Shown here: positions 44,761-54,406 of the stretch, piece by piece
Layout: each line of letters begins with the position of its first letter
Numbering within the stretch: position 1 is the first letter of the stretch
Origin: Sandarakinorhabdus glacialis
Lineage (GTDB): Bacteria > Pseudomonadota > Alphaproteobacteria > Sphingomonadales > Sphingomonadaceae
Direction: 5' to 3'
NCBI RefSeq assembly: GCF_014643455.1
Contig: NZ_BMJM01000002.1
Coordinates: 124,406 to 188,405, forward strand
Length of the DNA stretch: 64,000 bases
Notes under the pieces: generated by a model
The model's database searches: none
The model's input: the letters and a program-made list of their open reading frames with translations, nothing else
What the model was told of the DNA's origin: nothing
Made by a program: the position numbers and the translations under genes

Positions 44761-46218
44761 TCACGGGGTCATCCGCGCCATTGCGGCCGACATCAGCAAC
44801 AGCGACGACACGCCGGGATAACGAAAGCGGAAGCGCACCTCGCTTTCGAATTCGTGGAGTTCGAGCAGGTCGTGCGGGTGGGCAAAACGCTTGAGGTCGC
44901 GCTCGATCAGCGGCGGCGACTGGGTGCCGCCAAGCTCGGTATAGACGTCGTCGACACCGAAATAGCCGTCGGCGGAGCTGCCGGCGCGGGCGGCAGCGAT
45001 AAGCAGTGGCCATTGCGAGCGGGCTTCGTCGCGGCCGAGGCTGGCCTGGACGCGGCGGGGCAGCGAGGCGTTCCAGTCAGTCAACACGCGCTCGATGGCG
45101 GCCCGGCCGTGTTTTTCGTCGACGACGGAGCGCTTGTCGGTCAGCGCCGCCAGCCCGGCCTGGTGGGCGAGCAGGCGGACAAGGTAGGGCGAGCCACCGG
45201 CCATGGCAGTGACCATGGCGACGGCTTCGTCGGAGTAGCGGATTTCGGCGGCCACTTCTCCGATGGCGATGACTTCGCGAACTTCGGCAGCCGACAGCGG
45301 CCGCATCGGTAAGCCGACGATGTTGCGCCGAATCGACGGGGCATAGCCGATGAGCTCGTCGAGGTTCTGCGCGACGCCGGTCAGCACCAGCTGGACCCGC
45401 GCGGCGCGATCGGACAGGTTCTTGATGAGCTCGGCCACGTCGCGGCGGAAGTTGGGATCGAGGACCCGGTCATATTCGTCGAGGATGATGATGACGCGGG
45501 TGCCGGTGACGTCCGCGAACAGGTCGGCGAGTTCGCGCGGGCCGAAATGTTCCTCGAGCATGGTGTCAAAATGGTCGCCGCGTTCGGCTTCTGCGGAATT
45601 CGGAAGGACCGATTTGTGATAAAGCCGCGGGATGCGGGCCGCAAAGGCGCGGAACATCGCATCGAAATGGGCTTCGGTGCCGCAGCTGCCATACAGCACA
45701 AGGTAGCGGGCTTCACGCGCGGTTTCGGCGAAAACATGCGCCAGGCTGGTCTTGCCGATGCCGCGTTCGCCGTAGATGACGACATGGACGCGCTGCTGCT
45801 CGATGCAGCCGATCAGCTGCGCCAGTGCATCGTGGCGGCCGGCAAAGCTCTCACGGCCGATGACCGGCTGCGAGGCGCCCAGCGCATCGCGCAGCGCCAA
45901 TTTGCGACGGGACAGCGACGAATCGGCGTCGGTGCTTTCGACATCGTCGGATGCCGATGCCGAGAAACGCGGCAGCGCCTGGTTGCGGGGGCCTTCCTCC
46001 GGCTCACGCCACAATGTGTCGAGGAACGCCGGGCGGGCTTCGCGGGTGCCATCGGCAGTGCCGGCAGCGAACACGGTCGGGCCGTCAGAAGCCGTCGATG
46101 TCGTGCCGGTCAGGCCGGGGTCGAAACGCGAGGCGTCGGACAAACCGGGGGCGAGCAGCGCCTCGGGGGCCGCCTCGGCTGTGGTCCGTTCCGAGCGCGA
46201 CCAGCGTTTCCAGATCAT
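44761..46218 (-). CDS. AAA-type ATPase of the exopolysaccharide locus
   Basis: 485 residues. The first 115 residues are low-complexity and not conserved in any way I recognise. The ATPase part starts PVIGRESFAGRHDALAQL, Walker A VIYGERGIGKTSLAHVF near residue 150, Walker B RVIIILDEYDRVLD, and a sensor-like LVLTGVAQNLDEL. A winged-helix-like end follows (YFGVDDVYTELGG). It looks like ORC/AAA_16 ATPases. It does not match the ExeA-like ATPase of classical PEP-CTERM loci closely. The role here is unknown. It is divergent from the outer-membrane export gene across 186 bases. Confidence 0.75.
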   Translation of the reverse strand: MIWKRWSRSERTTAEAAPEALLAPGLSDASRFDPGLTGTTSTASDGPTVFAAGTADGTREARPAFLDTLWREPEEGPRNQALPRFSASASDDVESTDADSSLSRRKLALRDALGASQPVIGRESFAGRHDALAQLIGCIEQQRVHVVIYGERGIGKTSLAHVFAETAREARYLVLYGSCGTEAHFDAMFRAFAARIPRLYHKSVLPNSAEAERGDHFDTMLEEHFGPRELADLFADVTGTRVIIILDEYDRVLDPNFRRDVAELIKNLSDRAARVQLVLTGVAQNLDELIGYAPSIRRNIVGLPMRPLSAAEVREVIAIGEVAAEIRYSDEAVAMVTAMAGGSPYLVRLLAHQAGLAALTDKRSVVDEKHGRAAIERVLTDWNASLPRRVQASLGRDEARSQWPLLIAAARAGSSADGYFGVDDVYTELGGTQSPPLIERDLKRFAHPHDLLELHEFESEVRFRFRYPGVSSLLLMSAAMARMTP

Positions 46219-46404
46219 TTCTGCTTCTCACTCTGCTCAATACGCGCAATCGAGCCCGGTCTATACAAGCCCGTGTTTTAATAACAGGTGCTTTTCGCAA
46301 CAATACGCCATTCATCGAGTAGAAAGGCTTGAGTTCGCACATGCGGCGGACAGTTGCCGAAGCAAGTGCGGGCGTGTAGCAGCAGCCAACCAAGGGGTTT
46401 CGAT

Positions 46405-47760
46405 ATGATGCGGAAAATGATGTCCAGGTCTGTTCTGTTGGCCGCAGCGAGCGTAACCGTCGGGCTGTCGGCGACCGCGATCGCCGCACCCAATACGGCC
46501 GGCGATGACCCCAGCTTCACCGACACGGGGTTGACCTCGGTACCCGCTGTGGCGGGCCGTGGTTACCAGCTCGAGGCCAGCGTCCGGACATTGTACGACA
46601 GCAACATATTGCGCACCGGCGACGAGGTCCTGCAGCGTCCCGACAGCTCCAAGAGCGATTTCCGGATCTCGCCATCGGTGACGGCATCGGTCGGCGTGCC
46701 GGTCGGCCGGCAGCAGATCTATCTGGGCGGTATCATCGGCCGGGATTTCTACCTGCGCAACACGCGGCTGAACCGTAACCGGTACAATATCGGCGGCGGC
46801 GTCAACCTGGTTGCCGGCAACCGTTGCACCGGCGGCGTCGGCATTGATTTCAACAGCCGGCAGTCGCTGTTCTCGGAAGAGGCGGAAGTCGTGCCGAACG
46901 TCCAGGAGCGTCTGGCCCTTGGCGCTTCGGTGACCTGCCAGGGACCGATCGGCATCGGTTTCGGCGGCAGTGTCCGGCGATTCCAGACGCGCAACAAGAG
47001 CGCCGAGCGCAACCAGTTCGACGTCGACAGTCTGGCCGTCAGCCCGCAGATCAGCTATGGGCTGGGGAATATTGGCCGGTTCTCGCTGTCGGGAACGTGG
47101 AACCAGGTCAGCTATCCGAACCGCAACGTCTTTCTGCCGGGCGGCGGCGTGACGAACGACGGCGCCGAAATCATGAATGGCCGGTTCGGCTTCCAGCGCG
47201 AACTGGGGTCGCGGTTCTCCATCTCGCTCGGCCTGTCGTATCTCGAATCGATGCCCGATCCGTCGACAATCGTGCAGATTTTCCCGGCGCCGCCGCCGCA
47301 GGTCGGATTTGTCGGCACCGAGGTCGTCCGCGAGAAATTCTCGGGGCTGGGTTACGACGCCAATATTACTTACCAGCCGAGCCCGCGGATCACGTCGTCG
47401 CTGTTCGCAGGTCGTAATTCGACAGCGAGTGCCAACGTCGGGGCGCAATTCCAGGTGCAGAGCAATTTTGGCGTCGACGTCGATTATCGGCTGGGATCAT
47501 CGATGACGGTCGGTGCCGGTGCCACGCATAATCGCCGACAATATTATAATAGTTTCATTAACGTTGGCGATGAAGGCCGGCGCCGCATCGAAGACAAAAT
47601 CAATCGCGTATATGCAAGTATTGGCTATGCCCCGGTGAAGCTGTATTCCGTCAACCTGCTGCTTGCGTATCAGGATCGGCAATCCAATCCGGAAGATTTG
47701 TCGTTCAACAGCTTTTCCGCTCTTTTGTCCTTGCGCCTGAACTTTGGGAGGCAATCTTGA
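46405..47760 (+). CDS. Outer-membrane beta-barrel protein of the exopolysaccharide export operon
   Basis: 451 residues. A signal peptide ends near TAIAAP. The rest is a run of amphipathic strands with typical turns: YQLEASVRTLYDSNILRTG, RISPSVTASVGVPVGRQQIY, NRYNIGGGVNLVAGNRCTGG, and the last strand FSALLSLRLNFGRQS. This is the pattern of outer-membrane proteins found beside EpsE/GumB genes in exosortase loci (EpsL-like). It probably forms the outer-membrane exit for the polymer together with the OPX protein. Start ATG at 46405, with an AAGGGG upstream; its stop overlaps the next start (TGATG). Confidence 0.82.
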   Translation: MMRKMMSRSVLLAAASVTVGLSATAIAAPNTAGDDPSFTDTGLTSVPAVAGRGYQLEASVRTLYDSNILRTGDEVLQRPDSSKSDFRISPSVTASVGVPVGRQQIYLGGIIGRDFYLRNTRLNRNRYNIGGGVNLVAGNRCTGGVGIDFNSRQSLFSEEAEVVPNVQERLALGASVTCQGPIGIGFGGSVRRFQTRNKSAERNQFDVDSLAVSPQISYGLGNIGRFSLSGTWNQVSYPNRNVFLPGGGVTNDGAEIMNGRFGFQRELGSRFSISLGLSYLESMPDPSTIVQIFPAPPPQVGFVGTEVVREKFSGLGYDANITYQPSPRITSSLFAGRNSTASANVGAQFQVQSNFGVDVDYRLGSSMTVGAGATHNRRQYYNSFINVGDEGRRRIEDKINRVYASIGYAPVKLYSVNLLLAYQDRQSNPEDLSFNSFSALLSLRLNFGRQS

Positions 47761-48566
47761 TGTCCTTGGCATTCGTTCGCCGGCTTTTCACAACGCTGCT
47801 TCGAGTCGCAGCGATCGCCGGCATGGTATCCTTCGGTACGGCGGCGATGGCGGCCGACCCGACCGATGGTGGTTATATACTTGGTGCCGACGATACGGTG
47901 CAGGTCATTGTGTACGGTCAGCCCGAGGCCGGGATCACCACCCGGATCAAGTCCGACGGCAGCATCGTGATGCCGTTGATTGGTAACGTCAAAGCGTCGG
48001 GGCTGACCAACATCGGCCTTGCCAAGCTGATCACCGATCGGCTGACGCAGGGCGGGTTCCTGAAGGACCCGGTCGTCAACGTCGAGATCGGCGCCTATGT
48101 CAGCAAGTCGGCTAATGTTGCCGGCAAGGTCACCAGCCCCGGCATCGTGGCGCTCGACCGCCAGTACCGCGTGCTCGACGTGCTGCTCAAGTCGGGCTGG
48201 ATCCGCGAAAACGGTGCGTCCTATGTCTATCTTCGCCGGCCGGGTAGCCCCGAGGTCCGCCTCGAGGCCGAGAGCCTGGTACGCGGCGAGACCGACCGGA
48301 ATCCGTTGGTGCGGGATGGCGACACGCTGTTCGTACCCGATGCTGACCAGTATTATATCTATGGCCAGATCAACCGCGCCGGGGCGTTCCCGGTGCTGCC
48401 CGGGATGTCGGTCCGGCAGGCGATTGCGATCGGCGGCGGCGTGACGCCGACGGGCCAGTCCAACAAGGTCGGGCTGATCCGCGACGGCGCCAAGGAAGTC
48501 GACGCCGATCTTTTGCAGACAATCCGTAAGGGCGACGTGATTGTGGTAAAGGAACGGCTGTTTTGA
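47760..48566 (+). CDS. Polysaccharide export protein, OPX family (Wza/GumB-like)
   Basis: 268 residues. Signal peptide to about residue 32 (TAAMAAD); no lipobox, so unlike Wza it is not evidently a lipoprotein. The Poly_export domain starts YILGADDTVQVIVYGQPE and contains TTRIKSDGSIVMPLIGNV; SLBB domains follow (VNVAGKVTSPGIVALDRQ-like VAGKVTSPGIVALD, and YYIYGQINRAGAFPVLPGMSV). It links the periplasmic co-polymerase to the outer membrane. ATG overlaps the preceding stop; 34 bases separate it from the GumC-like gene. Confidence 0.92.
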   Translation: MSLAFVRRLFTTLLRVAAIAGMVSFGTAAMAADPTDGGYILGADDTVQVIVYGQPEAGITTRIKSDGSIVMPLIGNVKASGLTNIGLAKLITDRLTQGGFLKDPVVNVEIGAYVSKSANVAGKVTSPGIVALDRQYRVLDVLLKSGWIRENGASYVYLRRPGSPEVRLEAESLVRGETDRNPLVRDGDTLFVPDADQYYIYGQINRAGAFPVLPGMSVRQAIAIGGGVTPTGQSNKVGLIRDGAKEVDADLLQTIRKGDVIVVKERLF

Positions 48567-48600: not shown

Positions 48601-49998
48601 ATGAGTATCGTGCAGTTCCTGCGCATCCTGATCGCGCGCCGGTGGATCATCGCCGCATCGCTGATAACCTGCGTCGTCGTGGCGCTGACGGTGGCGAGCC
48701 TGTTGCCCGAGCGTTACCCGGCGAGCGCGCGCGTGCTGCTCGATATCGTCAAGCCCGATCCGGTGACCGGGCAGTTGATCTCGGGCGGGGCGACGCGGGG
48801 TTACATCAAGACCCAGATGGAGCTCATCCAGGACTACCGGGTTGCCGGTGAAGTCGTCGACAAGCTTGGTTGGGCGGAAAACCCGGCGATCGTCGCGGCA
48901 TGGCAGGCCGAAACCGGCGGTGCCGGCGATCTGCGGCGCTGGGGCGCCCAGCGCATCATCAATTCGACCGAAGTCAGCATCATCGACGGCTCCAATATCA
49001 TGGAGATCAAGTTCGAGGCGCCGAATCCGGATACCGCCAAGGCGGTGGTCGGGCTGCTGCGGTCCTCGTATATCGATGCCAGCCTGCGCTTTCGCACCGA
49101 TAGCGCTGGACGGACCGCGGACTGGTATCTCGACCAGGCCGAGCGGGCGCAGAAGGCGCTGGCCGCGGCCGAGCGGGCCAAATCGAAATTCGTGCAGGAA
49201 AACGGCATCGTCATCACGCCGGGCGGCACCGAGGCCGAGAGCACCAAGCTTGCCGGCCTGCAGGGTGCTTTGCTGTCGGCGCAGGGGGCCGAGGGCTCCC
49301 AGCAGTTCCAGGCGACGATGCGGGCGACGACGTCGGCGGTTGTCGACCAATTGAAGCTGCAGGTGGCGACGCTCAACGACCAGATGGAGCAGGCGGCCGA
49401 GAAGCTGGGCACCGAGCATCCGACCTACAAGGCGATGATCTCGCGGCGCCGGTTGCTGAATGAGCAGCTGTCGAAGGAAGAGGGCGCAGCGCGGGCGGCC
49501 GGAGCGGCGCAGAGTGGATCGTCGCGCCAATCGATTGCCCAGCTGCAGTCGGCCTATAATGCGCAGAAGAATGTCGTGCTTGGCATGAAGGACCAGCTCG
49601 ACCAGCTGGCCCAGCTGCAGCGCGAAGTCGATCTGCGCCAGTCGCAGTATGAGAAATCGGCGGCACGGACGGCCGATCTGCGGCTTGAATCGAATGTTTC
49701 GGAGTCCGGGCTCGTCATTCTGGGCGATGCCATCGGTTCGACGGCACCGTCGTTTCCGAACTGGCCGCAGATCACCGGTCTTTCGGTGGCATTCGGGCTG
49801 GCGCTTGGCTTGGTGCTGGCGATCGTGACCGAGCTCCTGGCGCGCCGGGTTCGCGGCACCGAGGACCTGCACTTTGCCGCCAAGGCGCCGGTGCTGGCTG
49901 TCATTACCGACGCCGGACCGTCGCCGCTCCGCGAACGCATTCGCAAGCTGCTCAGCCGGGGCGGTTCAGCGGGCGGCGATCTTCAACCTGCCGAGTGA
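48601..49998 (+). CDS. GumC/Wzc-type polysaccharide co-polymerase without kinase domain
   Basis: 465 residues. Chain-length determinant (Wzz) N domain: FLRILIARRWIIAASLITCVV with the first membrane helix, PERYPASARVLLDI. A long periplasmic coiled-coil region spans about residues 170-370 (DQAERAQKALAAAERAKSKF, LNDQMEQAAEKLGTEHPTY, GNUS-like GMKDQLDQLAQLQREVDLR). The PxxP-like SFPNWPQITG motif and second helix (LSVAFGLALGLVLAIVTELL) follow. No Walker motifs, so the ATPase partner is the next gene, which overlaps by GTGA. This corresponds to EpsF in related loci. Confidence 0.9.
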   Translation: MSIVQFLRILIARRWIIAASLITCVVVALTVASLLPERYPASARVLLDIVKPDPVTGQLISGGATRGYIKTQMELIQDYRVAGEVVDKLGWAENPAIVAAWQAETGGAGDLRRWGAQRIINSTEVSIIDGSNIMEIKFEAPNPDTAKAVVGLLRSSYIDASLRFRTDSAGRTADWYLDQAERAQKALAAAERAKSKFVQENGIVITPGGTEAESTKLAGLQGALLSAQGAEGSQQFQATMRATTSAVVDQLKLQVATLNDQMEQAAEKLGTEHPTYKAMISRRRLLNEQLSKEEGAARAAGAAQSGSSRQSIAQLQSAYNAQKNVVLGMKDQLDQLAQLQREVDLRQSQYEKSAARTADLRLESNVSESGLVILGDAIGSTAPSFPNWPQITGLSVAFGLALGLVLAIVTELLARRVRGTEDLHFAAKAPVLAVITDAGPSPLRERIRKLLSRGGSAGGDLQPAE

Positions 49999-50906
49999 GT
50001 GATTATTTGATGGACAATCCCTCCCTCGCCGATCGGGCATCATCACGCGTGGACGATGGCCGGGACATTTTCGATGCACCGATCAGGGATGCGCTGCTGC
50101 GGCTGGGCTATCTGTCGGAAGACCAGACGGCGCGGGTCGCGGCACACCAGGCGGAGCGAGGCCTGGATTTCGACCAGGCGGCGCTCGAACTGGGGTTCAT
50201 TACGACGGATGATCTCGACCAGGCGCGCGACCAGCTGATCAACAGCATGGCGTTGCAGGATGTGCGGCGCCGTGCGGTTTCGGCCGAACTGGTGGTGCTG
50301 AGCGATCCGTCGAGCGTGCGGGCGGAGTCTATCCGTTTGCTGCGGACCCAAATCATCGCCCAGCATATCCGTTCGGGGCGCCGCGGGCTGGCATTCGTGT
50401 CGGCGGTCGATGGCACGGGTTGCAGTTTCCTGGCGGCCAATCTGGCGGCATCGCTGTCGCAGGTCGGCATCAAGACGCTGTTGATCGACGCCAATATGCG
50501 GGCGCCGCGGATCGACCAGTTCTTCGGGCTCGAACCCGGCGCTGCGGGGCTGTCGAGCTTCTTGTCGTTGCAGGTGGCGCGGCCGGAGCGGGTGGTGAAT
50601 GCCAACGTGCTGCCCAGCCTGTCGGTGATGACGGCGGGACCGCCGGTGACGAGGCCGCAGGAGCTGCTTTCGGGCAATCGCTTCCGCGACGGCGCCAACA
50701 TGCTGTTGCGGGAATATGACCTGGTGATCTTCGATACGCCGCCGTCGAGCACGAACGCCGATGCGCTGACGATCGGTGCTGCGGCAGGCTACGCCTTGCT
50801 GGTGGCGCGCCGCGACCACAGCTATTTCAGCGACGTCCAGACGCTTGTCAGCCAATTGGCGGCAGCGCGCTGTCCGGTTATCGGCTCGGTTCTCAACGAA
50901 TATTGA
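49995..50906 (+). CDS. EpsG-like BY-kinase homologue with substituted Walker A lysine
   Basis: 303 residues from GTG at 49995, or 298 from ATG at 50010. Residues about 30-80 (RDALLRLGYLSEDQTARVAA, ALELGFITTDDLDQARDQ) resemble the MshEN/GspE N-terminal helical repeat. The kinase-like domain has RLLRTQIIAQHIRSG, then FVSAVDGTGCSFLAANLA, where the P-loop lysine (GxGKS) is Cys143. Walker A' is TLLIDANMRAP; Walker B is DLVIFDTPPSSTNADAL. There is no C-terminal tyrosine cluster; it ends VLNEY. So it may bind nucleotide weakly or serve as a regulatory partner of the co-polymerase and not as a tyrosine kinase. Confidence 0.82.
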   Translation: MSDYLMDNPSLADRASSRVDDGRDIFDAPIRDALLRLGYLSEDQTARVAAHQAERGLDFDQAALELGFITTDDLDQARDQLINSMALQDVRRRAVSAELVVLSDPSSVRAESIRLLRTQIIAQHIRSGRRGLAFVSAVDGTGCSFLAANLAASLSQVGIKTLLIDANMRAPRIDQFFGLEPGAAGLSSFLSLQVARPERVVNANVLPSLSVMTAGPPVTRPQELLSGNRFRDGANMLLREYDLVIFDTPPSSTNADALTIGAAAGYALLVARRDHSYFSDVQTLVSQLAAARCPVIGSVLNEY

Positions 50907-51796
50907 TCGTGGCAACCATAGTTTCACAACCCCGGGTCGCCTGGCGGCAGGTAACCTTGCACCACTGGCCGCTTATTCTTGGCGTGCTCGCCATGGCGGT
51001 GCCGACGCTGGTGTCGCTGGCACGGGGGCCGTGGTCGCTCGAATCGGGCGTGCATGGCCCGATCGTGCTGGCGACCGGGCTGTGGCTGATCTTCCGGCGC
51101 CTGCCCGAGATCCGCGAGCAGATGGTGCCGGGCAATGTGTTGTTGACCGCGCTCGGGCTGGCGATCGGCGTGCCGCTTTATATCTTTGGCCGGGCGTTCG
51201 ATTTCGTCAGTATCGAAGTCGCCGCGCTGCTGTTGGTGATGTTGTCGGTTGGCCATGCCTATGTCGGGGCGCGGGTCATCCTGTCGCTGTGGTTTCCGAT
51301 CTTTTACCTGGGGTTCATGATCCCGGTGCCGGGCTGGGTGCTCGATGCAGTGACGCAGCCGTTGAAGCTGCTGGTGTCCGAGGTTGTTACCCAGGTGCTG
51401 GCATATTTCGGCTATCCGATCGGCCGTGTCGGCGTGACGATCTATGTCGCGAATTACCAGCTGCTGGTCGAGGATGCCTGTGCGGGGCTCAATTCGCTGG
51501 TCAGTCTTTCGGCGATCGGGTTGTTCTATGTCTACATGCTGCGCGGCAGTAACTGGCGTTATTCTATCCTGTTGCTGATGCTCGTGGTGCCGATCGCCAT
51601 TGCCGCGAACATGGTGCGGGTGGCGGCGCTGGTGCTGATCACCTTCCATTTCGGCGACGCCGCGGCGCAGGGGTATCTGCATAATTTCGCCGGCATGGTG
51701 ACCTTCACGACGGCGCTGCTGTTCATTTTCCTGGTCGACAAGATCCTGTCGCCGGTGCGCAACTGGCTGGCCCAGCCGGCGGAGGCTGGAGCATGA
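50903..51796 (+). CDS. Exosortase, probably V type (XrtV)
   Basis: 297 residues. An integral membrane transpeptidase that cleaves and attaches proteins with a C-terminal sorting signal. About eight helices. The catalytic residues are clear: Cys193 in LLVEDACAGLNSLVSL, Arg239 in PIAIAANMVRVAALVL and His260 in QGYLHNFAGMVTF. The preceding PIFYLGFMIPVPGWVLD is also conserved. The start may be TTG at 50903 (overlapping the previous stop as TTGA) or GTG at 50909. The following EpsI gene overlaps by ATGA. The V-type call rests on the neighbouring EpsI and small accessory gene. Confidence 0.9.
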   Translation: MIVATIVSQPRVAWRQVTLHHWPLILGVLAMAVPTLVSLARGPWSLESGVHGPIVLATGLWLIFRRLPEIREQMVPGNVLLTALGLAIGVPLYIFGRAFDFVSIEVAALLLVMLSVGHAYVGARVILSLWFPIFYLGFMIPVPGWVLDAVTQPLKLLVSEVVTQVLAYFGYPIGRVGVTIYVANYQLLVEDACAGLNSLVSLSAIGLFYVYMLRGSNWRYSILLLMLVVPIAIAANMVRVAALVLITFHFGDAAAQGYLHNFAGMVTFTTALLFIFLVDKILSPVRNWLAQPAEAGA

Positions 51797-52482
51797 ACCG
51801 GCGTGACCTGTTGATGGGCGCAGCGATGCTGTCGGCCGCGGGCGGCGCCTTTGCACTGACCCCGCGGACGCGGCTGGTCTTGCTTGGCGACCGCAAAATC
51901 GACGATGTCATTCCGGCGAAGATCGGCGAGTGGAAACATTATCCGTCGAGCCAGTTCGTGATGCCAAAGTCACCCGGCAGCCTCGCGGACCGGCTTTACA
52001 GCCAGACCATGTCGCGACTGTACGTGGCCGAGGGCAGGCTGCCAATGATGGTCGTCATTGCCTATGGCGCGGTCCAGAACGATTCGCTGCAGTTGCATCG
52101 CCCCGAGGCTTGCTATTCCGCGGTCGGGTTCACGATTTCCGAATCGCGAACGGCATTCGTGCCGCTCGGCGATGGCCAGAAGTTGCCGGTCCGCGAACTG
52201 ACCGCGACCAGCAACGCACGGATCGAGCAGATTACCTATTGGACGCGGATCGGCGACGACCTGCCAACCGATGGCGCCGAACAGCGCCGGGTGAAGCTGC
52301 GCCAGCAGATGCGCGGGTATCTGGCCGATGGCATCCTGGTGCGGATCTCGACGGTTGCGGAAACGTCGCCGGAGGTCTTCGCCGAGCTATCGAATTTTGC
52401 GACGGCGTTGATCAAGGCGATGGCGCCGGGCGATCGCGATATCCTGATCGGACGGCCATTGGCCGCGGCCATGATTGCCTGA
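51793..52482 (+). CDS. EpsI domain protein associated with the exosortase
   Basis: 229 residues. A twin-arginine-like or plain signal (MNRRDLLMGAAMLSAAGGAF) leads to the EpsI domain: IGEWKHYPSSQFVMP, YVAEGRLPMMVVIAYGAVQ, LQLHRPEACYSAVGFTISES with the conserved HRPExCY motif, and TNARIEQITYWTRIGDD-like SNARIEQITYWTRIGDD. In other exosortases EpsI is fused to the C-terminus; here it is separate, as in the V-type system. It is secreted to the periplasm. Its exact part in sorting is not known. Confidence 0.9.
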   Translation: MNRRDLLMGAAMLSAAGGAFALTPRTRLVLLGDRKIDDVIPAKIGEWKHYPSSQFVMPKSPGSLADRLYSQTMSRLYVAEGRLPMMVVIAYGAVQNDSLQLHRPEACYSAVGFTISESRTAFVPLGDGQKLPVRELTATSNARIEQITYWTRIGDDLPTDGAEQRRVKLRQQMRGYLADGILVRISTVAETSPEVFAELSNFATALIKAMAPGDRDILIGRPLAAAMIA

Positions 52483-52553
52483 TGACCGGGTCGGCGCCTG
52501 TGTGCGGCACCGTTGCCCGGCCAGGCGTGCCGTTCGCTGCCCCAATCGCTGCC

Positions 52554-52817
52554 CTAGTCGCTGGGTTCGCTGAACGGCCGCAGGGCAAACCAGATAAAGC
52601 CCAAGGTTGCGGCGCCAAGGGCGATGGCAGCCATGTGGTAAGCCGTGGAATCGAGCTTGAGGGCCTCGTTGCCGAGATAGTTGGTGGTGGCGCAGCCGAC
52701 CGCGGCGACGAGATATTGCCACAGGTGATCGCGAGCGACACCTTGCGAACGTTGCAGGAAGAGCACGATAAGCCCGGCAAATATGATGATTGTGACCCAA
52801 TCATAGGGTGTTTCCAT
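52554..52817 (-). CDS. Small membrane protein, probable exosortase V accessory protein
   Basis: 87 residues in the opposite direction between epsI and the sugar transferase gene. It begins METPYDWVTIIIFAGLIVLFLQRS, a first helix, followed by HLWQYLVAAVGCATTNYLGN and a last helix (MAAIALGAATLGFIWFAL). Three membrane segments in 87 residues. I recall a family of this size and start annotated as an XrtV sorting-system accessory protein in sphingomonads; the match is from memory. The longer frame through its 5' side is not supported. Confidence 0.72.
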   Translation of the reverse strand: METPYDWVTIIIFAGLIVLFLQRSQGVARDHLWQYLVAAVGCATTNYLGNEALKLDSTAYHMAAIALGAATLGFIWFALRPFSEPSD

Positions 52818-52942
52818 GCTGTTTCCCCTGATGCGATACGTGTCCCTACAACAGTTCTTGCCCCCGGGGCCACTGCCATTGGTACAACTTCGATTTTCGT
52901 CGCATACGAGTTTGCGGCAACTGCTTTCGGTGCCGGGCCACG

Positions 52943-54406
52943 ATGATGAAGGACGTTCGGCTGCAACCGCCTCTTGAAGCTCCGAAGACCAGCAAGCCGG
53001 GCGTTCCGCTCGACCTGGCGATCTTTGGCGTTCGTGTCCTCGAATTCCTGACCGTCCTTGCCAGTGGTGCGCTGGCAACCTTCCTGGTGCGTGACAGCCT
53101 GTCGGTCGAAGCCGTGTCGAGCTATGGCCGGGTCGTATTCGTGGCGGCGATCGCCTATGGGGTGCTCGCCGAAAGCCTTGGCTGTTATGACATCGACGCG
53201 CAGTTTTCGCTGCGCCGGGCCTGGCAGCGGGTGGCGACGACATGGGTGACGGTCGCGCTGTTCATGATCACGCTGGGCTTCTTGTTGAAGTCGTCGGACG
53301 TCGTGTCGCGCGGTTGGGCGCTGGGCTGGTTCGTCGCCGGTGGCCTGACGCTGCTGATGCTGCGCGCGATCTCGACGATATGGGTGCGGCGTCTGAAGAA
53401 TCGCGGCACGTTCAACCAACGGGTGGCGATATTCGGCGCCGGGGCACAGGGCGCGCGCTTTGCCGATTACGTCCAGTCGCACGACCGCCTGACCATTTCA
53501 CTGGTCGGGTTTTTCGACGATCGCCGTGACGGGCGGGTGCCGGCGGAAGCGTCGAACGTGCCGGTGCTGGGCAACTTGTCGGCTTTGGTGTCGATGATCC
53601 GCGATGGCCATGTCGACCAGGTCGTGGTGGCGTTGCCATGGTCGGCGGAAACGCGGCTGCAGCAGGTTGTCAGCCGGTTGGCGCTGACACCGGTGAAAAT
53701 CCGCCTGGCGCCCGACCTGGCAAGTTTTGCATTTGCCCGCCGGCCGTTGGTGATGCTTGGCGAAATGCCGGTGATGACGCTGTTCGAGAGGCCGATTTCA
53801 GGGATGGATGCAGCGGTCAAATCGATCGAGGACAAGGTGCTGACGCTGTGCATCCTGGCCGTAATCTGGCCTATATTATTGATCGCCGCGATTGCGGTGA
53901 AGCTCGATTCAGCGGGCCCGGTGTTCTTTCGACAGCCGCGCGAAGGGTTCAACAACAAGCATTTCCATGTGCTCAAGTTCCGGTCGATGTACCATGACCG
54001 CGCCGAGGTCCATGCGATCAACCAGGCCAGCCGCGAGGATCCTCGCATAACGCGGGTCGGGCGTATCCTGCGGCGGACCAGCATCGACGAGCTTCCTCAG
54101 CTTTTCAACGTCCTGATGGGCGACATGTCGCTGGTTGGGCCACGGCCGCATGCGCCGCACACGCGCGCCGGCGGGCGGTTGTTCTCGGAAGTGGTGGCGT
54201 CTTACGCGGCACGCCACAAGGTCAAGCCGGGAATTACCGGATGGGCGCAGGTTTGCGGTTGGCGCGGCGAGACCGACACCGAGGACAAGCTGTTGAAGCG
54301 CTTCGACCATGACCTCCACTATATCGAGAATTGGTCGCTGGGTTTCGACTTTTACATTCTATTCAGGACGATCGGATCTGTCCTGCTGCCGAAGAATGCC
54401 TTTTAG
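52943..54406 (+). CDS. Undecaprenyl-phosphate glucose phosphotransferase (WcaJ-type initiating transferase)
   Basis: 487 residues. It starts the repeat unit by moving a hexose-1-phosphate onto undecaprenyl phosphate. The N-terminal half has four or so helices and a Rossmann-like CoA-binding region (RVAIFGAGAQGARFADYVQS, VGFFDDRRDGR). The C-terminal bacterial sugar transferase domain has SAGPVFFRQPREGFNNKHF, VLKFRSMYHD, RRTSIDELPQLFNVLMGDMS, LVGPRPHAP, KPGITGWAQVCGWRGETDT. ATG at 52943. Glucose is the usual substrate of this subfamily; galactose is possible. Confidence 0.93.
   Translation: MMKDVRLQPPLEAPKTSKPGVPLDLAIFGVRVLEFLTVLASGALATFLVRDSLSVEAVSSYGRVVFVAAIAYGVLAESLGCYDIDAQFSLRRAWQRVATTWVTVALFMITLGFLLKSSDVVSRGWALGWFVAGGLTLLMLRAISTIWVRRLKNRGTFNQRVAIFGAGAQGARFADYVQSHDRLTISLVGFFDDRRDGRVPAEASNVPVLGNLSALVSMIRDGHVDQVVVALPWSAETRLQQVVSRLALTPVKIRLAPDLASFAFARRPLVMLGEMPVMTLFERPISGMDAAVKSIEDKVLTLCILAVIWPILLIAAIAVKLDSAGPVFFRQPREGFNNKHFHVLKFRSMYHDRAEVHAINQASREDPRITRVGRILRRTSIDELPQLFNVLMGDMSLVGPRPHAPHTRAGGRLFSEVVASYAARHKVKPGITGWAQVCGWRGETDTEDKLLKRFDHDLHYIENWSLGFDFYILFRTIGSVLLPKNAF

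Follow-up and report, generated by a model that had tools for sequence, protein, structure and literature searches.

We analysed a stretch of 64,000 nucleotides from the genome of Sandarakinorhabdus glacialis (contig NZ_BMJM01000002.1, positions 124,406 to 188,405 of the forward strand), referred to below as the window and numbered from its first letter. It carries an exosortase gene, xrtV, which is followed by epsI and, on the opposite strand, by the gene of a small membrane protein that is catalogued as the accessory protein of the XrtV sorting system:

50903..51796, + strand: xrtV, exosortase V, a putative membrane Cys-Arg-His enzyme (NF035943, 382.6 bits, cut-off 313)
51793..52482, + strand: epsI of the V type, a stand-alone exosortase-associated protein (NF045608, 282.2 bits, cut-off 228)
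52554..52817, - strand: XrtV sorting system accessory protein, 87 residues (NF045607, 115.1 bits, cut-off 35)

On the strength of these profile matches, this is a complete XrtV exosortase locus of an already catalogued kind, and it closes an operon for exopolysaccharide export. An initial annotation had read the layout as an XrtV-type system. The profiles bear this out: all three genes pass the curated cut-offs of one named system and, rather than assigning the exosortase to some other type unrelated to the small protein, the models connect the two.

The open reading frame of xrtV encodes 297 residues from a TTG codon and contains an in-frame GTG at 50909, from which the NF035943 score was computed. 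By the curated cut-offs the exosortase is of type XrtV. The full set of predicted catalytic residues described initially is present as Cys193 (51479), Arg239 (51617) and His260 (51680), and the three columns are invariant in all 30 aligned XrtV sequences from the order. Among solved structures no relative of XrtV was found by sequence at an expectation value (E) ≤ 1. The genome (3.32 Mb, 40 contigs) contains one xrtV gene, and the general exosortase/archaeosortase model detected no second exosortase at E ≤ 1. EpsI is encoded by a reading frame of its own, also as first annotated, and the coordinates given for the reversed 87-residue protein were right.

The gene of this accessory protein starts with an ATG that is preceded by a purine-rich AGGGGA, as read from the sequence. 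Its structure model has a mean predicted local distance difference test score (pLDDT) of 92.4 and consists of three helices (residues 4-24, 32-55 and 58-79), in agreement with the three helices assigned before. In 26 profile-gathered sequences M1, T3, D6, F13, S24, Y35, A43, N46, G49 and N50 are invariant, and W7 is exchanged for Phe in three of them. Another set of 63 sequences, collected with two peptide patterns, has 13 invariant columns, a number that the patterns themselves partly favour. Counts of Lys plus Arg average 0 for the N-terminus, 1.8 for loop 1, 0.4 for loop 2 and 1.6 for the C-terminus, from which an N-out/C-in topology is predicted. With this topology D6/W7 and N46/G49/N50 would be located on the periplasmic side, where the cutting of PEP-CTERM tails is thought to occur according to passages of PMC1569441. 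A comparison of the accessory profile with solved chains gave one match, titled sc-CC-5-24, over 21 positions.

The initial annotation had suggested a search of the genome for C-terminal sorting tails and had described both the substrates and the accessory role as little known. The first part of this description does not hold, since PEPxxWA-CTERM tails are readily recognized: the model NF035944, which we take to be the tail model paired with XrtV (the pairing was then checked by co-occurrence), gave 36 tails over its cut-off among 38 matches at E ≤ 10. In 14 control genomes, matches at E ≤ 10 occurred in ten and matches over the cut-off in none. The second part stands, as no biological paper on 'XrtV', 'exosortase V' or 'PEPxxWA' was found in a search that left most subscription papers outside. 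None of the 36 tails lies inside the window, which agrees, for this tail model, with the earlier remark that no sorting tail is present there. The tails have the architecture VPEPxxWAM, hydrophobic helix and Arg-rich end. For the best 30 of the matches the loci were examined; PEP occurs in the printed end of 26 of these proteins, of which VPEPASWAMLIAGFGLVGAAMRRR is typical, and 19 have a signal-peptide-like start as judged by eye. The first Met was taken as the start, which is wrong for several proteins, and one protein is cut by a contig end. It is likely that the substrates of XrtV are these PEPxxWA-CTERM proteins, about three dozen in number and encoded elsewhere in the genome.

Promoter motifs of the -24/-12 consensus are recognized by sigma-54, and a looser pattern derived from this consensus was tried first on the 30 tail loci. 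A strict pattern, TGGCA[CT]-N5-TTGC[AT], then matched these loci (90,455 bases) 11 times on the sense strand and twice on the antisense strand. The background in related loci is 11 matches in 2.85 Mb of strand-bases, i.e. 3.9 per Mb (25.7 per Mb for the looser pattern), so that about 0.35 sites were expected versus 11 observed. The resulting Poisson p-value of about 2e-13 is flattering because both patterns were applied to the same loci. Ten of the 11 strict sites are located 13-71 bases upstream of an in-frame start (L005, L012, L013, L019, L021, L022, L024, L026, L028 and L031), and the remaining one (L011) is 490 bases off. Nine of the ten near-start sites precede a start that resembles a signal peptide by eye. 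The strict pattern has no match in the window, and hence none ahead of either the accessory gene or the operon of xrtV; the two matches of the looser pattern there, at about 20216 and 42985, adjoin neither of them. A sigma-54 motif upstream of PEP-CTERM genes in Proteobacteria is described in passages of PMC1569441, and the sites in the tail loci agree with this.

A panel of 246 genomes from the order served to determine the distribution of the system; p-values are not corrected for relatedness. NF045607 is over its cut-off in 32 of these genomes and below it in two more. XrtV reaches at least 200 bits in 35, a presence line set by us, since only 23 genomes pass the curated XrtV cut-off; one further genome (G119) adds a C-terminal piece. 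EpsI of the V type scores at least 100 bits in 36 genomes (27 over cut-off), and PEPxxWA tails occur at E ≤ 0.001 in 48 (39 over cut-off). All 32 genomes with the accessory gene also have XrtV, EpsI-V and PEPxxWA tails (E ≤ 0.001), with Fisher p-values below 1e-27 if relatedness is ignored. At most 33 tail candidates were scored per genome, and counts of 33 are thus lower bounds. Among the 26 genomes with at least five tails, 24 contain the accessory gene and 25 XrtV; both are missing in G133. In a sample of 385 genomes of the class, the accessory cut-off was passed by two, the window's own genome and G381. The generic PEP-CTERM model, applied to 16 chosen genomes, matched in all 16 and did not separate those lacking the accessory gene.

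Some genomes of the panel deviate individually. In G119 XrtV is matched over its last 68 positions only (C1:3444042-3444245, 91.8 bits) with EpsI and the accessory protein present, and its xrtV is possibly broken. G133, which belongs to the genus of the window, has 24 PEPxxWA tails (E ≤ 0.001) and 22 PEP-CTERM matches; its assembly, 99% complete in about 10 contigs, gave no match to the general exosortase model, EpsI-V, the accessory protein or EpsF. These tails may be targets orphaned when the locus was lost, or the locus may fall in an assembly gap. The flanking antiporter, used as an anchor for the locus, gave matches of only 29-32% identity and was uninformative. G239 contains a second XrtV-like gene (C3:328824-330321, 180 bits) next to a partial match to EpsI (56 bits); the main xrtV lies on the same contig at a distance of about 240 kb. 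In several genomes of the panel a second, longer exosortase is present elsewhere.

In the window, xrtV and epsI are the last genes of a tightly packed + strand unit of six. The genes preceding them and those on either side of the unit are:

44761..46218, - strand: AAA ATPase, divergent from epsL (PF13191, 45.3, over cut-off 32.6)
46354..47760, + strand: EpsL-like outer-membrane beta-barrel (TIGR03014, 78.5 bits, under cut-off 275)
47757..48566, + strand: EpsE-like polysaccharide export protein with Poly_export and SLBB domains (TIGR03028, 152.1 bits, under cut-off 262.65)
48601..49998, + strand: EpsF-like chain length determinant (TIGR03017, 289.6 bits, under cut-off 422.75)
49995..50906, + strand: EpsG-like chain-length kinase homologue (TIGR03029, 203.4 bits, under cut-off 313.8)
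52943..54406, + strand: WcaJ-type undecaprenyl-phosphate glucose phosphotransferase (TIGR03023, 483.2 bits, cut-off 410.75)

Four of the five junctions within the six-gene unit are 4-base overlaps, including that between xrtV and epsI. The matches of the EpsL-, EpsE-, EpsF- and EpsG-like proteins to the Eps models are significant, yet under the curated cut-offs; PF10082 (33.1, cut-off 23.7) and PF02563 (68.3, cut-off 28) are passed by the EpsL-like barrel and the EpsE-like protein, respectively. The Walker A consensus is G-x-G-K-S/T. In the EpsG-like homologue, which fails the TIGR03029 cut-off, the lysine is replaced and the motif reads DGTGCS. In 50 EpsG-like proteins of xrtV loci the lysine place is taken by Cys in 33, Ala in seven, Thr in one, Val in one and Lys in none, and eight are off-pattern. 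Possibly this is a kinase-like protein that uses ATP in an unusual way, if at all. The accessory gene is convergent with epsI (71 bases apart) and divergent from wcaJ (125 bases apart). Neither a sigma-70 promoter nor a terminator was found in 52400-53000.

We compared this arrangement with related loci, namely the best 80 of 127 accessory relatives from public genomes (one per species). They are mostly from Sphingomonadales, the nearest being alphaproteobacterial bins, Polymorphobacter and Sandarakinorhabdus. Of these loci, 65 have xrtV in the flank, always on the strand opposite to the accessory gene (44 convergent, 21 divergent, none in tandem). The flank sequence of the other 15, several of which are at contig ends, contains no xrtV. 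In 28 of the 80 loci the accessory gene adjoins the 3' end of the operon, flanked by epsI and wcaJ. In 16 it is found at the 5' end, where it is transcribed away from epsL and followed on its own strand by the AAA ATPase. In the order panel, where linked means within 30 kb on one contig, 24 of 28 linked cases have the opposite and four the same orientation (G156, G119, G062 and G030). The accessory gene is far from xrtV in four of 32 panel genomes, at 80 kb, at 1.1 Mb and on another contig in two. The reversed placement is thus a conserved, not universal, habit at either end of the operon.

EpsI carries an Arg-Arg N-terminus and an HRPEACY motif. All 53 relatives examined have H-x-P-E-x-C, and 48 have Arg-Arg inside their first 12 residues; in 45 sequences 23 columns are invariant, including His102, Pro104, Glu105 and Cys107. 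The Arg-Arg stretch (window 51793-51870) resembles a twin-arginine translocation (Tat) signal and scores 12.2 with the TAT model, under its cut-off of 16.7. By sequence, the search for solved relatives gave one match at E 0.83, and no solved chain of the Mog1/PsbP-like set was matched. The structure model (mean pLDDT 91.9) was compared with solved structures by Foldseek, in which five chains of SciW were found at E ≤ 0.001 (best 2.6e-4, template modelling scores below 0.5), followed by LpqN, DcrB and others. In a second structure comparison, 13 of the 31 top rows bear the title DcrB, SciW, EagT6, Mog1 or PsbP, with a maximum Z of 7.8 for DcrB (111 residues, 3.8 Å) and 7.1 for SciW (119 residues, 3.9 Å), values below 8 that may reflect a common arrangement only. 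The resemblance of the EpsI model to the Mog1/PsbP-like fold is consequently regarded as a lead. No paper containing both 'exosortase' and 'PsbP' was found in the literature searched. Passages of PMC1569441 give no known function for EpsI as of 2006, and those available of PMC12419801 do not treat it.

The genome agrees with the XrtV/EpsI V-type/PEPxxWA-CTERM system of NCBIfam, whose models NF035943, NF045608, NF045607 and NF035944 all have matches over cut-off in it; we see no difference in composition, and the facts on gene position are added by the present analysis. The XrtB (EpsH) system is similar in that XrtB is the closest other exosortase type and the EpsI_B and EpsE/F/G/L models match. 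It differs in that the proteins of the locus remain under the cut-offs for XrtB (253.9 bits, TIGR03113 cut-off 275), EpsI_B (189.5 bits, cut-off 220), EpsE, EpsF, EpsG and EpsL. The logic of the tails is like that of the XrtA/PEP-CTERM system, from which the locus differs in its XrtA score (128.6 bits, cut-off 208) and in having EpsI as a separate gene. Passages of PMC12188702 hold that exosortases remove PEP-CTERM tails and aid delivery to the surface together with polysaccharide; in the same passages, fewer PEP-CTERM proteins were detected in the exoproteome once cyanoexosortase B had been deleted, which is no direct proof of cleavage.

Taken together, we consider it probable (about 0.7) that the genome encodes a complete XrtV machine with PEPxxWA-CTERM substrates, in which the accessory protein is a dedicated three-helix subunit of an XrtV/EpsI complex. 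Secreted proteins with PEPxxWA tails would cross the inner membrane and be held there by the tail. The Cys-Arg-His site of XrtV, presumably facing the periplasm, would cut or transfer them at the PEP side, with EpsI acting as its periplasmic partner, and the processed proteins would then leave for the cell surface along with polysaccharide. The 87-residue protein would be made from its own transcript as a membrane subunit of the complex, and Thr3, Asp6, Trp7, Asn46, Gly49 and Asn50 on its predicted periplasmic side most likely hold XrtV or admit the helix of the tail.

Several observations weigh against such a subunit. In a mirror-tree analysis of 36 non-redundant loci (from 42 having all six genes), the partial correlation of the accessory protein is 0.00 with XrtV and strongest with EpsF (0.38), compared to 0.50 between XrtV and EpsI. 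This analysis does not favour a direct contact of the accessory protein with XrtV. Loop 1 has a slightly negative net charge (-0.6), so that only the Lys plus Arg counts speak for the predicted topology. Foldseek revealed no structural relative of the accessory model at E ≤ 0.001; a second structure comparison gave Z up to 9.3 (NINJ1), a range possibly due to the common arrangement of helical bundles. Finally, four panel genomes (G146, G179, G209 and G227, the last with xrtV matched over positions 3-177 only) have XrtV without the accessory gene, which is hence not always needed.

The mirror-tree would be accounted for if the accessory protein were a partner of the polysaccharide side (EpsF, WcaJ or the AAA ATPase) and tracked XrtV only via a travelling locus. 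Its best partial correlations are those with EpsF and EpsE (0.24), its gene and wcaJ diverge in the window as well as in 31 of 80 related loci, and in 28 of 80 an AAA ATPase homologue on the same strand is the next of eight searched-for genes. In four of the 15 loci without xrtV in the flank (L146, L161, L166 and L171) the ATPase follows the accessory gene and no export gene was detected. On the other hand, seven related loci have the accessory gene next to xrtV or epsI and showed no export gene over the at least 3.8 kb read upstream of xrtV, and four further loci have this placement with a single weak export match (42-59 bits). In L145, L160 and L164 the accessory gene and xrtV are 54-160 bp apart and epsI does not intervene, and XrtV is present in every panel genome carrying the accessory gene. 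The loci without detected export genes favour a role with XrtV, and we weigh them above the mirror-tree because the latter is based on a protein of 80 residues and on shared descent. A partnership with polysaccharide export is accordingly judged unlikely, although it keeps some weight.

A membrane sensor that tunes the activity or amount of XrtV would explain why the accessory gene usually lies opposite to xrtV (65 of 65 related loci with both genes, 24 of 28 linked panel cases), owing to which it is rarely part of the xrtV transcript. With 87 residues in three helices, however, the protein is too small to include a soluble sensor or a DNA-binding part, and the four same-strand panel genomes do not fit either; we find a regulator quite improbable. 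The dedicated subunit could also be seen more narrowly, with EpsI and the accessory protein forming a tail-handling module and XrtV, instead of acting alone, doing the cutting in an exosortase complex of three parts. Eag chaperones such as SciW and EagT6 use the Mog1/PsbP-like fold to cradle membrane helices. That SciW and EagT6 bind transmembrane segments, as stated in passages of PMC7773334, suggests such a function for EpsI, which might accept the PEPxxWA helix or present it, on the periplasmic side; the three-helix protein might keep the tail or XrtV in place within the membrane. This proposal is speculative and, in our estimation, rather doubtful. A chance or antisense reading frame, in contrast, is rejected. 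The frame does lie in reverse between two forward genes, and the + strand is open as well (338-residue frame, 51930-52946), but the curated equivalog cut-off is passed threefold, both sequence sets have their invariant columns, and relatives occur at other positions and strands in other genomes.

Exosortase systems tie protein sorting to polysaccharide export. This genome offers a clean test case, with a single exosortase, a single EpsI, one accessory gene and 36 tails of candidate substrates. Since the accessory gene is on the other strand from the operon, it should be deletable with little polar effect. If tail handling by EpsI were true, the role of this protein in exosortase systems would become testable.

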